From Candidatus Bipolaricaulota bacterium (GTDB lineage Bacteria > Bipolaricaulota > Bipolaricaulia > UBA7950 > UBA9294), in NCBI GenBank assembly GCA_028278555.1, contig JANQEA010000026.1:62001-126000 (forward strand): a DNA stretch of 64,000 bases, in the 5' to 3' direction. This document shows positions 25,007-28,755 of the stretch, piece by piece; within the stretch, counting starts at the first letter, position 1; the number at the start of each line of letters is the position of its first letter. Position numbers and translations under genes: made by a program. The notes beneath the pieces are model-generated. The model was not told the DNA's origin, did not search any database, and saw nothing but the letters and a program-made list of their open reading frames with translations.

Positions 25007-25079
25007 TTGGCAGACTGACTCCGCTTGACTATCATAGGTGTTCGCGTGACCCGATGAGGCGTGCTGCTCTCGCGAGAGC
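25007..25079 (+). promoter_or_regulatory. Promoter TTGGCA-17-TATCAT and 14-base palindrome
   Basis: TTGGCA (25007-25012), 17-base spacer, TATCAT (25030-25035), the same boxes as the promoter at 38336. About 30 bases downstream is the perfect palindrome GCTCTCGCGAGAGC (25066-25079), a possible operator or leader hairpin. The next gene starts at 25267, leaving a leader of more than 200 bases with nothing else recognisable. Confidence 0.5.
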
Positions 25080-25266
25080 GCATCGGGCGAAGAGAGCGAG
25101 AACGACGATTCGGCGACGGCACCTCCCAGGCAAGGGATACAGTGGGACGAACTCAACGGGGCCGTCGCCGGACCTTTTCGAGCCTCGCCAGCGACCCGTC
25201 TCCTCTCCGTCTCAGAGCCGCCTTCCTCTTGCACGCACACGAGACCCCGCATACTCTCTGAGCGCC

Positions 25267-25872
25267 ATGCGCAATCCACGATGTCGCCTCGTTCTCCTCA
25301 TCTCTTCGATGATCCTTCTGTCTCTCCTGACCGTGCCCGCCGGCTCCTCTGATGGCGACTTCCGCGCCCATTCGGACACCGTCTATCCGATCGCCGTCAC
25401 GGCCACCCGATCGTTCGCTGACATCTCTACCAACGCTCTCGATGGAGGCCGCAAAGGGTGCCAATGCAGCGAAGCGAGCGAGATCTCTCGAGAAGCTCCA
25501 GAGAACCCATGCGTCCAATGCGTGGCCGTTTGCCTGATGTCCCGCGGTTTCCTGATCGCGCAAATGTCGATTCCGTTCACCAATGGGATCGGAGCCGACC
25601 TGCTCATCTACGAGTGGGGAGACCGCTGTAGCGGTGTCGACGATGCGTTCTCCGTCTATGTAAGCGAGAACGGCCACCAATGGGTCCTCGTCGCCGAGGA
25701 GATCCGGAACGACCCCGAGGACATTCGGGCTTCGATCGAACTCGGTGAGCTGAACGGCAGTTACCTCTTCGTGAAGATCGTGCCCGCCGTCAACGGAGGA
25801 TTCGGCTCGATCAGCGGTCCGGAGATCGTCGCCATTCAGGCGGTTCATCCCGCCGTCGGAATAGGGCTCTGA
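25267..25872 (+). CDS. Secreted protein with a beta-sandwich-like domain, unknown
   Basis: A 201-residue product beginning with a good Sec signal (RNPRCRLVLLISSMILLSLL, cleavage near residue 25). A central Cys cluster (CQCSE near 60, CVQCVAVC near 76-83) precedes a C-terminal half rich in strands, with GADLLIYEWG, AFSVYVSENGHQWV and GSYLFVKIVPAVNGGFG. This pattern recalls extracellular domains in which a surface feature is scored against a reference, but no family is assigned. The ATG at 25267 is chosen for the signal peptide; its ribosome binding site is poor, and an ATG at 25054 in the same frame would add a 71-residue Arg-rich leader. Confidence 0.55.
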   Translation: MRNPRCRLVLLISSMILLSLLTVPAGSSDGDFRAHSDTVYPIAVTATRSFADISTNALDGGRKGCQCSEASEISREAPENPCVQCVAVCLMSRGFLIAQMSIPFTNGIGADLLIYEWGDRCSGVDDAFSVYVSENGHQWVLVAEEIRNDPEDIRASIELGELNGSYLFVKIVPAVNGGFGSISGPEIVAIQAVHPAVGIGL

Positions 25873-25940
25873 GCTCCGGCGAAGAGGACACCTTCAACGG
25901 TCGACGACCGTCTGCCGAGATACTCCTCGCTCGCCTCACC

Positions 25941-25968
25941 TTGAACCCACGATCGGCTCGTCTATAAT
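25941..25968 (+). promoter_or_regulatory. Strong promoter of the two-gene unknown unit
   Basis: TTGAAC (25941-25946), 16-base spacer, TATAAT (25963-25968), a perfect -10 box. Transcription should start near 25975, giving a leader of about 235 bases before the gene at 26211. Confidence 0.7.
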
Positions 25969-25978
25969 GCTCGACGAT

Positions 25979-26077
25979 ATGAAGGCCGCGAAGCGTTACC
26001 CGACTTGTGAGAATCCGCACGGTCTGGTCATGCTTTGGGTCTTCCAGACGATCGTCGGACGGACGACGCGCGGCTAG
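25979..26077 (+). CDS. Possible leader peptide (32 residues)
   Basis: An open frame starting with ATG only a few bases after the predicted transcription start, so it would be leaderless. It encodes MKAAKRYPTCENPHG followed by a hydrophobic part and stops at 26077, inside the left arm region of the structured leader. It could be an attenuation peptide, or chance. There is no run of one amino acid to suggest which residue it would sense. Confidence 0.25.
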   Translation: MKAAKRYPTCENPHGLVMLWVFQTIVGRTTRG

Positions 26078-26147
26078 CGGCCAAGCAGCCAACGCGAAGA
26101 CCGTCCGACAAGCGAACGCAGGCTACGGCCTGCGATTTTGCTTGTCG
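26054..26147 (+). ncRNA. Structured 5' leader with two mutually exclusive hairpins
   Basis: Hairpin A: GTCGGACGG (26054-26062) pairs with CCGTCCGAC (26101-26109). Hairpin B: CGACAAGC (26106-26113) pairs with GCTTGTCG (26140-26147), enclosing CGCAGGC/GCCTGCG (26117-26123 and 26128-26134) with a four-base loop. Bases 26106-26109 are needed by both, so only one can form at a time. This is the geometry of a riboswitch or attenuator. No known riboswitch class was recognised, and hairpin B has no U-run after it. The RNA would control the genes at 26211 and 26426. Confidence 0.45.
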
Positions 26148-26210
26148 AGTCGGCGCGCGACCCTGCGCATGGACAACGCGCCCCGATCCATGGGGCTCCA
26201 GGAGGTGACG

Positions 26211-26429
26211 ATGTACACAAGGAAGTCACGAATCGCAAGACAGCTCGAACGGAACAACGGTCATCGCACGATTGCTCGGTTCCGCGGTCTGCCGATGTAC
26301 CGCCGCGGGATTGCTGCCGTCGTCGGCGCGACGGCGTCGACCATCGCCGCCTTCACGCTATGGGTCGATCGAGGAGCGCCCTGTCATGCCGCCGATTCGG
26401 ACGCCGAGCGAAGGGAGGGACCCCCATGA
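26211..26429 (+). CDS. Small single-helix membrane protein, unknown
   Basis: A 72-residue product with a strongly basic N-terminal third (Arg/Lys/His) and one hydrophobic segment at about residues 33-52, then a short acidic tail. The layout resembles a small membrane-anchored protein or an exported peptide with a long n-region. The ribosome binding site AGGAGG is excellent. It overlaps the next gene by four bases (ATGA), so both are translated together. No family recognised. Confidence 0.5.
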   Translation: MYTRKSRIARQLERNNGHRTIARFRGLPMYRRGIAAVVGATASTIAAFTLWVDRGAPCHAADSDAERREGPP

Positions 26430-26770
26430 CACTCGATGAGCAAAGAGACGTGCTGGTCGTCCTCCATCGGGCCGGTGAACCTTCCGGGGAACCTTCCAAG
26501 GAGAAGGCCGAACAACGCCTTCGACTTCCCGTCGGGGCGGGATTCTCGGACTTGCTCCGCGAGCTCGAGCGAGAATCGCCGACGATGTACACGGAGATCC
26601 GCGAACGGATCCTCCGTTCCGCCGGCCGGGTTCTCGCCTACGGGAAGGACGACGACCTTCTGCCGGCACTGACCCAACAGCTTGCGAACGGCGGCCCGGT
26701 CATCTTCCCGGCCGACGCCGAACCCATTCGAACGAACAGCCAGCCGGGTGGGGTGAACAATCCCGGCTGA
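26426..26770 (+). CDS. Hypothetical soluble protein, unknown
   Basis: A 114-residue, charged, probably helical product with no signal or membrane segment and no family recognised. Residues about 40-70 (FSDLLRELERESPTMYTEIR) look like an amphipathic helix pair. ATG at 26426 is preceded by GGGAGGG and overlaps the stop of the small membrane protein gene. A strong terminator follows directly, so this pair is a self-contained unit with its own promoter and leader. Confidence 0.5.
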   Translation: MTLDEQRDVLVVLHRAGEPSGEPSKEKAEQRLRLPVGAGFSDLLRELERESPTMYTEIRERILRSAGRVLAYGKDDDLLPALTQQLANGGPVIFPADAEPIRTNSQPGGVNNPG

Positions 26771-26777
26771 GCACTCC

Positions 26778-26827
26778 AACGGCGCCTCTGCCCCGCGCCT
26801 CCGATATCCCGCAGAGGCGCCGTTTCT
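26778..26827. terminator. Strong bidirectional terminator
   Basis: Perfect 14-base inverted repeat AACGGCGCCTCTGC (26778-26791) / GCAGAGGCGCCGTT (26811-26824), with TTTC after it on the plus strand. It lies between convergent genes and can serve both. Confidence 0.85.
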
Positions 26828-26859
26828 CCCCTCTCGTCCGAGCAGAGAGGGAGGACCTC

Positions 26860-27204
26860 CTAGAGGCCCTCTCGAAGACCCTCGAGCGTCGCCTTCGCGT
26901 CGGGGACGAAACCGAAGAACTCCGTCAGCTTCTCGCAGGCGTAGTCATCACATTCCGCACAGGTGTCGACGCCCTTCTCTACGCCGCAGGCACGGATTCC
27001 ACACTCGGCGCAGTGCGACATCCACGGGCCGCTCTCCGAGTGGCAGCCATCACACCGGCAGTCCTCCGCGGTGAGCTGCGCGTTATACTCCGCACTCCAC
27101 ATCTCGGCGACCTTCGCAATCGCTTCCGCGTCCTGGCTCTGCGTCGCGATGTAGCCGGGGCACTCCGTACAGATCAGCCCGCAAGTTGCGATCTTCCTCT
27201 CCAT
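26860..27204 (-). CDS. DUF3795 cysteine-rich protein
   Basis: A 114-residue protein with many cysteines in zinc- or cluster-ligand spacing: ATCGLICTECPGYIAT near the N-terminus, CRCDGCHSESG near 50, CAECGIRACG near 66-75, and CAECDDYACEKL near 81-92. This is the pattern of the DUF3795 family, frequent in anaerobes, function unknown. ATG at 27204 is used because AGGAGG lies six bases upstream. It is divergent from the flavoprotein gene at 27349. Confidence 0.75.
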   Translation of the reverse strand: MERKIATCGLICTECPGYIATQSQDAEAIAKVAEMWSAEYNAQLTAEDCRCDGCHSESGPWMSHCAECGIRACGVEKGVDTCAECDDYACEKLTEFFGFVPDAKATLEGLREGL

Positions 27205-27348
27205 CCTCAACCTCCTTCGAACGACGAATCATACCGAGATGGATCGGCGATTGCGCGATGCCCCGAATCGACTGTAGATGAGGATTCGACCGGCTATACT
27301 TGCGAGCACAATCGGTACCGATCGGCCGAGGACAGGAGGAACTTGACG

Positions 27349-28755
27349 ATGCGCTACGACTACGACGTCGCCGTCATCGGGCTCGGGCCCGCGGGGATGG
27401 CCGTATCGATCATGGCTGCGGAGATGGGGTTGCGCGTCCTCGGGATCGAGCAGCGGGCCCTCGGCGGCGAGTGCATGAACGTCGGATGCATCCCGAGCAA
27501 GGGGCTTCTCCGAATGGCGCACGTCCGCCACCTCGTCGGACGACTCTCCGAGTACGCGTTGTCTGATGTCGAACCTCCAGCGCCGACTGAGCCCTTCGCT
27601 CGAATCGCAGAGCACCTTCGCTACATCACCGAGAAGAAGACGACCAAGATGTTCGAGAAGGTCGATCTCCGGCTCGGCGAAGGGCCGGCGTCGTTCGTCA
27701 ATCCGCATACGGTCTCGGTCGGCGGCCGGACTGCCACGGCGAAGCGGATCTTCGTCTGCGCCGGAACCCGCCCGTGCACCCCGGCGATTCCGGGCCTCGA
27801 TAGGGTCGACTATCTGACGAACGAGACGATCTTCGACCTGGAGACGATCCCCGAGAGCCTGCTGATCATCGGCGGCGGAGCAATCGGCTGCGAAATGGCG
27901 CAGGCGTTCCGGCGCCTCGGTGCTCGCGTAACGATCGTTCATCTCGATCCCCACCTCCTTCCGCACGGCGACTGGGATGCCGGCAAGCTCCTTGAGGAGG
28001 TCTTCGTCAACGAGGGAATCAGCGTCTACAACGCACGCGGTGTGCGACGCGTTGCTCGCGAGAACGCGGTGATCACCCTGCAGACCGATCACGGCGAGCT
28101 CTTCCGCGGGGAGAAGCTTCTCGTCGCCGCCGGCCGGCAGTACGCGTTCGACGGGCTCAACCTCGAGGCGGCCGGCGTCAAGTACGGCGAGAACGGGATC
28201 GAGGTCGACAGCCGCCTCCGAACCTCCGTGCCGCACATCTATGCGCCGGGCGACTGCAACGGAGCCTACCTCTTCTCCCACGCGGCGATGCATCAAGGGA
28301 TGATCGCTCTAATGAATGCCGCCGCGCCGTGGCCGATCCGGTTCGATTACCGTAAGTACGTCGTTCCGTGGGCCGTCTTCACCGAACCGCTCGTCGCCCA
28401 CGTCGGCGCCCTTGAGCGCGATCTGAAGGCGAACGACGTCCCCTACGAGGTCGTCGAGGAGAGCTACGCCGATTACGGCGCCGCAATCGCGGAAGGGGTT
28501 GCGATCGGCTCCGTCCGAGCATACGTCAGCAAGGCCGGCCGGATCTACGGCGTCCGAATCATCGGCGAGGGAGCCGGGGAGATGATCAACGAGTGGGGGT
28601 TGGCTATTCAGAATCGGCTTCGCCTCCACAAGATCATGTTCCTGCAGCACGCCTTCCCATCGATGTCGTTCCTCACCAAGCGCGTCTCGGAACGGTGGAT
28701 GATGAATCGGATGGAGAGTCCGCTCCTCCGTCGCCTCGTCCGCTGGCTCTTCTAG
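27349..28755 (+). CDS. Lpd/mercuric reductase-like flavoprotein disulfide reductase lacking the His-Glu base
   Basis: A 468-residue class I pyridine nucleotide-disulfide oxidoreductase. It has the FAD motif VIGLGPAGMAVSIMAAEMG, the redox disulfide GGECMNVGCIPSKG (C42, C47), NAD-binding GGGAIGCEMAQAFRRLGA near 185, and the second FAD motif IYAPGDCNGAYLFSHAA near 300. In true lipoamide dehydrogenases the C-terminal motif HAHPTxSE supplies the catalytic His-Glu; here it reads HAFPSMSF, with both replaced by Phe (F436, F441). The C-terminus is basic and aromatic, possibly membrane-seeking. It is not beside 2-oxoacid dehydrogenase genes. A quinone or metal reductase role is an inference. AGGAGG precedes the ATG. 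Confidence 0.82.
   Translation: MRYDYDVAVIGLGPAGMAVSIMAAEMGLRVLGIEQRALGGECMNVGCIPSKGLLRMAHVRHLVGRLSEYALSDVEPPAPTEPFARIAEHLRYITEKKTTKMFEKVDLRLGEGPASFVNPHTVSVGGRTATAKRIFVCAGTRPCTPAIPGLDRVDYLTNETIFDLETIPESLLIIGGGAIGCEMAQAFRRLGARVTIVHLDPHLLPHGDWDAGKLLEEVFVNEGISVYNARGVRRVARENAVITLQTDHGELFRGEKLLVAAGRQYAFDGLNLEAAGVKYGENGIEVDSRLRTSVPHIYAPGDCNGAYLFSHAAMHQGMIALMNAAAPWPIRFDYRKYVVPWAVFTEPLVAHVGALERDLKANDVPYEVVEESYADYGAAIAEGVAIGSVRAYVSKAGRIYGVRIIGEGAGEMINEWGLAIQNRLRLHKIMFLQHAFPSMSFLTKRVSERWMMNRMESPLLRRLVRWLF

Follow-up and report, generated by a model that had tools for sequence, protein, structure and literature searches.

How do two small genes of a Bipolaricaulota bacterium come to be transcribed when a predicted terminator stands between them and the only promoter-like site in their vicinity? 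The locus that raises this question lies in a 64-kb stretch of DNA (64,000 nucleotides, referred to as the window) from a metagenome-assembled genome of 2.9 Mb in 88 contigs (G000). A sequence-only reading of the window had described a leader RNA with mutually exclusive hairpins ahead of the genes. This observation proved to be real and stronger than described, but the exclusivity was wrong, a long hairpin at the 5' end had been missed, and a terminator lies inside the leader itself. Our best explanation, which we put forward tentatively, is that a lineage-restricted transcription attenuator governs an accessory two-gene cassette, with the translation of a leaderless upstream ORF (uORF) as its likeliest sensor. 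The features are collected in Table 1.

Table 1. Features of the leader and its cassette, with positions in the window
Feature	Position	Strand	Description
Sigma-70-type promoter	25941..25968	+	TTGAAC-16-TATAAT; 10/12 consensus positions; TATAAT at 25963-25968
Putative leaderless uORF, 32 codons	25979..26077	+	ATG at the predicted transcription start; TAG (26075-26077) in the P2 loop
P1, long 5' hairpin	25981..26044	+	GAAGGCC-CGAAGCG / CGCTTTG-GGTCTTC; pairs the start of the uORF with its middle
P2, hairpin	26054..26109	+	GTCGGACGG (26054-26062) / CCGTCCGAC (26101-26109), exact complements; uORF stop in the variable loop
P3, intrinsic terminator inside the leader	26106..26147	+	Found by terminator scan; core plus A/U-rich base
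Gene 1, 72 aa	26211..26429	+	Basic, one hydrophobic stretch; Shine-Dalgarno sequence CAGGAGGTGA at 26199-26208
Gene 2, 114 aa, MoaD/ThiS-like	26426..26770	+	Start overlaps gene 1 by 4 nt
Hairpin after the cassette	26778..26824	+	ACGGCGCCTCTGC / GCAGAGGCGCCGT, then TTCTCC; probable terminator, weak T-run, z -3.6

The leader folded with an energy of -92.1 kcal/mol, compared with -60.6 kcal/mol for shuffled sequences (z -7.5; 0/200 as stable). P1 consists of 13 pairs, five of which are changed on both sides; it carries most of the covariation and is present in the minimum-energy folds. In P2, 97% of the cells of the seven core pairs are paired and an A-U pair is replaced by G-C in L004/G012, while the loop has indels of 5 and 8 nt and an invariant CTAG. 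The core of P3, CGCAGGC-TACG-GCCTGCG (26117-26123/26128-26134), has a UNCG-type loop and is followed by ATTTTG; its stem is kept in 5/5 genomes, G014 being without one closing pair. The A/U-rich base of P3 is formed by CGACAAGC at 26106-26113, which is exactly complementary to GCTTGTCG at 26140-26147. The structure was derived from an alignment of five sequences, of which one genus contributed three. In this alignment, P1, P2 and P3 together left 93.3% of cells paired, and changes on both sides occurred in 10 cells, against 3.6 in shuffles (0/500 as high) and 0-3 when the partners were slid; sliding the partners by 1-3 columns lowered the pairing to 36-46%.

Much of the earlier description of the RNA therefore holds. 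The two pairings that it listed, 26054-26062 with 26101-26109 and 26106-26113 with 26140-26147, are exact complements, the covariation that it proposed to look for in homologous loci is present as compensatory changes in both conserved arms of its first hairpin, and the RNA folding that it suggested gives the low energy stated above. However, the overlap of these pairings is limited to 26106-26109, and both are present in the minimum-energy folds. Because they coexist, a switch in which 26101-26109 has two partners is unsupported, and what had been taken for the second switch arm, 26140-26147, is part of the base of the terminator.

The uORF overlaps P1 and P2 with its frame kept and is 28-33 codons long across the five genomes. 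Its ATG and CTAG columns are invariant (5/5), indels are multiples of three within it and not so after its stop, and the -10 element ends 6-10 nt upstream of the conserved ATG in all five loci. The arrangement TATAATN{5,10}ATG was observed once in the 64-kb window, compared with 0.07 expected. The sequence weakly suggests that the uORF is translated. No third-position bias was seen: the differences at codon positions 1/2/3 were 63/80/70, whereas gene 1 (195/176/249) and gene 2 (143/97/197) showed a third-position excess, as expected. The openness of the uORF is not significant, with shuffled sequences remaining open for 28 codons about half of the time, and neither a control-codon run nor a conserved arrest peptide was found in it. 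Since amino-acid selection is absent, the sequence of the peptide, if it is translated, would hardly matter. Of the 32-codon leader peptide proposed earlier, the ORF and the position of its stop remain; sensing through the peptide sequence does not, given the lack of third-position bias.

Several other properties of the uORF were seen. Its stop is TAG in every genome, at the invariant CTAG column, and an extra, earlier in-frame TAG is present in G012. The uORF and gene 1 share their frame in four of the five genomes, with no stop other than TAG between them. We discarded a readthrough product that continues past the TAG into gene 1, because G002 and G014 read the conserved P3 DNA in frames that differ and there is no conserved fusion of the two. 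We also rejected the idea that the uORF peptide is a copy of gene 1, the similarity being significant in one of five genomes. Elsewhere in the window, the GTG of a 390-codon ORF on the minus strand (33252) lies 6 nt past a perfect TATAAT, which makes this ORF another candidate leaderless gene.

The alternative that survives best is a riboswitch or protein-binding leader, in which a metabolite or a protein, perhaps one of the gene products, would stabilise P1/P2 and set termination while the uORF stays untranslated. The strong covariation and the absence of a coding signature in the uORF fit a pure RNA sensor, and CUAG, invariant in the loop of P2, could serve as a recognition site. However, the unpaired positions of the leader show little conservation outside CUAG, in contrast to known aptamer cores, and such a sensor needs neither an invariant ATG triplet nor frame-keeping indels. 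Rfam gave no credible match to the leader at gathering or even relaxed thresholds, a tRNA/tmRNA scan of the whole window found none, and a literature search returned no Bipolaricaulota paper that also mentions riboswitches. We regard this explanation as somewhat unlikely, and the riboswitch or stress-response role suggested in the sequence-only reading gained no positive evidence.

The favoured attenuator was followed through related genomes. The leader (approximately 25974-26141, plus strand) is present as one copy per genome in 5/33 family genomes, namely that of the window and G002, G014, G021 and G012, which represent three genera. When 60 relatives were searched at the nucleotide level with 25870-26430, the leader was found in G002 and G014, at 76-78% identity across 107-125 nt. 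A blastn comparison of the gene-2 loci also gave G021 and, for its terminator, G012. A covariance model returned exactly five loci from 100 phylum genomes (E < 1e-30, one per genome); these matches are the model's own seed sequences, so the informative part is the absence of the leader from all other genomes of the 100. With laxer filters, the model run on the 33 family genomes gave the five loci together with matches of 10-17 bits that looked like chance. When the P2 3' arm and P3 were searched as a DNA pattern in 84,980 named genomes, the four relatives were recovered, labelled as Bipolaricaulota except for one that is filed as Atribacteria; four more matches, from unrelated taxa, had the short motif alone in common. 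The pattern was not found in viral contigs and plasmids.

Genes 1 and 2 are located downstream of the leader in 5/5 loci. Among the 100 phylum genomes, the leader was never found without both genes, nor was the cassette form of gene 2 found without the leader. In four of the five loci (window, G014, G002 and G021), a PNPOx-like gene lies on one side of the cassette and a DUF3795 gene on the other, the latter followed by a pyridine nucleotide-disulphide oxidoreductase; the three g3 genomes have an extra PNPOx-like gene between the cassette and DUF3795. G028, a congener of G002, G014 and G021, has the same flanks around an empty site with neither leader nor genes, and in G012, which belongs to a different genus, the whole unit is at another locus with other surroundings. 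The joint presence, the empty site and the relocation show that the leader and the genes behave as one accessory unit. Directly upstream of the cassette, the window also has a 272-aa ORF (25054-25872) without a Pfam match; the syntenic relatives lack it at this place, between PNPOx and the cassette.

As the earlier reading had it, the two genes overlap, and the overlap suggests that they may be translationally coupled. The homologues of gene 1 in the five genomes are 62-77 aa long, with a net charge of +5 to +14 and a single moderately hydrophobic stretch of 17 residues; a search of gene 1 against Pfam, NCBIfam, PHROGs and PADLOC gave no match. The gene 2 proteins are 97-114 aa long and have a net charge between -2 and -6; they were similar to the family's genuine MoaD-like proteins (E 2.3e-7; hhalign 92.8%). 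The search for homologues of the 72- and 114-residue proteins that had been recommended thus yielded the cassette homologues and a MoaD relationship for gene 2, but no database match for gene 1. The cassette proteins did not match the PADLOC defence profiles.

Gene 2 is a MoaD/ThiS-type relative without the Gly-Gly tail. By sequence it is related to this sulfur-carrier family (PF02597), from which it differs in that the C-terminal Gly-Gly is absent from 4/4 intact cassette gene 2 proteins, the window protein has no match in a Pfam scan, and helices replace the middle strands of MoaD in the AlphaFold model (pLDDT 73.5, moderate confidence). The predicted fold is only roughly compatible with a beta-grasp, and a fold search of the model against the PDB gave no significant match. 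A profile search of PDB sequences with alignment A4 alone gave a weak MoaD match; the MoaD matches with alignment A1 are not independent evidence, because A1 contained true MoaD proteins. The nearest relatives of gene 2 are MoaD-like proteins ending in GGG in G005 (L005) and G022 (L007), where the leader is absent. Gene 2 of G002 (L010/L006/L042) is split by a frameshift, with partial matches in different frames, which is either an assembly error or a decaying gene.

The promoter in Table 1 is the sole promoter-like site within 25300-27400. An equivalent promoter (9-11/12) is found at the same place in 4/4 relatives, giving one promoter position per locus in 5/5, and a scan between the P3 terminator and gene 1 detected none in the five loci. 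The TATAAT promoter of the sequence-only reading is present and has TTGAAC 16 nt upstream, and the scan found nothing in favour of a transcription start downstream of 26150, which it had named as a refutation. The strong terminator that it placed after the genes corresponds to a long hairpin, although the T-run is weak. Between P3 and the Shine-Dalgarno sequence (26148-26198), a short hairpin of differing sequence is apparently present by eye in each relative, and it might affect the translation of gene 1.

A terminator between the promoter and the first gene of a single transcription unit is the arrangement of an attenuator. With one promoter upstream of the leader, a terminator within it and no promoter before gene 1, the simplest reading is a transcription unit broken by a terminator, that is, attenuation; we infer that termination is conditional and that attenuation actually occurs. 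Genes 1 and 2 are probably transcribed only once RNA polymerase passes the stop signal of the leader. The notion of a compact regulated cassette behind an undescribed attenuator-like leader is supported in five genomes by conservation, covariation, the single promoter and the in-leader terminator, and also by the lack of a match in Rfam.

A promoter, a structured body of three hairpins in series and a strong intrinsic terminator are also the full anatomy of a stand-alone small RNA of ~165 nt acting in trans, with genes 1 and 2 merely receiving read-through transcription, and the leader DNA is better conserved than the genes, which yield almost no blastn match. We consider this possibility quite unlikely, because leader and cassette were never separated among the 100 phylum genomes and no separate promoter serves the genes. 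It is highly improbable that the uORF encodes a real small protein, ends at a terminator that belongs to it and has genes 1 and 2 as neighbours by accident: the leaderless position of its ATG and the alignment of its TAG in all five genomes would suit such a gene, but purifying selection on its amino acids is absent, its similarity to the gene 1 peptide reaches significance in just one of five genomes, and the cassette moves as a unit.

In the attenuator that we favour, transcription would start ~5-9 nt past TATAAT, essentially at the uORF ATG. By default, P1 and P2 would fold, followed by the P3 terminator, and a leader transcript of ~165 nt would be released; genes 1 and 2 would be expressed solely when P3 is defeated. 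If translation of the leaderless uORF is the sensor, a ribosome held at the first codons, in the P1 5' arm, would free the P1 3' arm, which could then pair with the P3 5' arm, P2 folding between the two and bringing them together. In the calculated folds, the P3 5' arm paired upstream with a probability of 0.02-0.26 when the 5' end was intact and 0.37-0.79, with P2 enclosed, when the first 23 columns were masked as a stand-in for ribosome occupancy. This antiterminator can be drawn in 5/5 genomes, but without excess over shuffled sequence (p 0.10; p 0.125). Because shuffled upstream sequences perform almost equally, it is a workable but unproven switch, and the folding model weakly suggests that the P1 3' arm and the P3 5' arm are used in this way. 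That the attenuator reads the act of leaderless translation, and not a codon or a peptide, is an unlikely but conceivable refinement, for an ORF of 28-33 codons with unconstrained amino acids.

The uORF transcription attenuators of whiB7/wblC and ilvB1 (PMC13236596) also place an intrinsic terminator after a uORF, in leaders of similar size (in ilvB1 the U-tract ends at +126 and the gene is at +168). The Bipolaricaulota leader resembles them in layout. They have codon- or drug-induced stalling and a proposed antiterminator, whereas the Bipolaricaulota leader has neither control codons nor a conserved peptide and its candidate antiterminator does not exceed shuffled sequence; the cargo genes are unrelated. 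In mycobacteria, leaderless-uORF attenuators with polycysteine short ORFs have been described (Canestrari et al. 2020, via PMC9031893), with control through the speed of the ribosome on cysteine codons. As described there, they share with our locus a short leaderless ORF upstream of the regulated operon; they differ from it in that the Bipolaricaulota uORF has no control-codon run and its leader has a conserved intrinsic terminator.

The leader is best classed with the terminator-bearing leader RNAs, a broad kind of which it is a new, lineage-restricted member. It is a covariation-supported regulatory RNA missing from Rfam, and it marks a discrete accessory gene pair without known domain annotation. 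If the leaderless ORF is indeed the sensor, the locus would offer a simple natural system in which to test how leaderless translation regulates genes. If leaderless translation itself is read, expression of the cassette would be tied to the supply of ribosomes that start on 5'-terminal AUGs.
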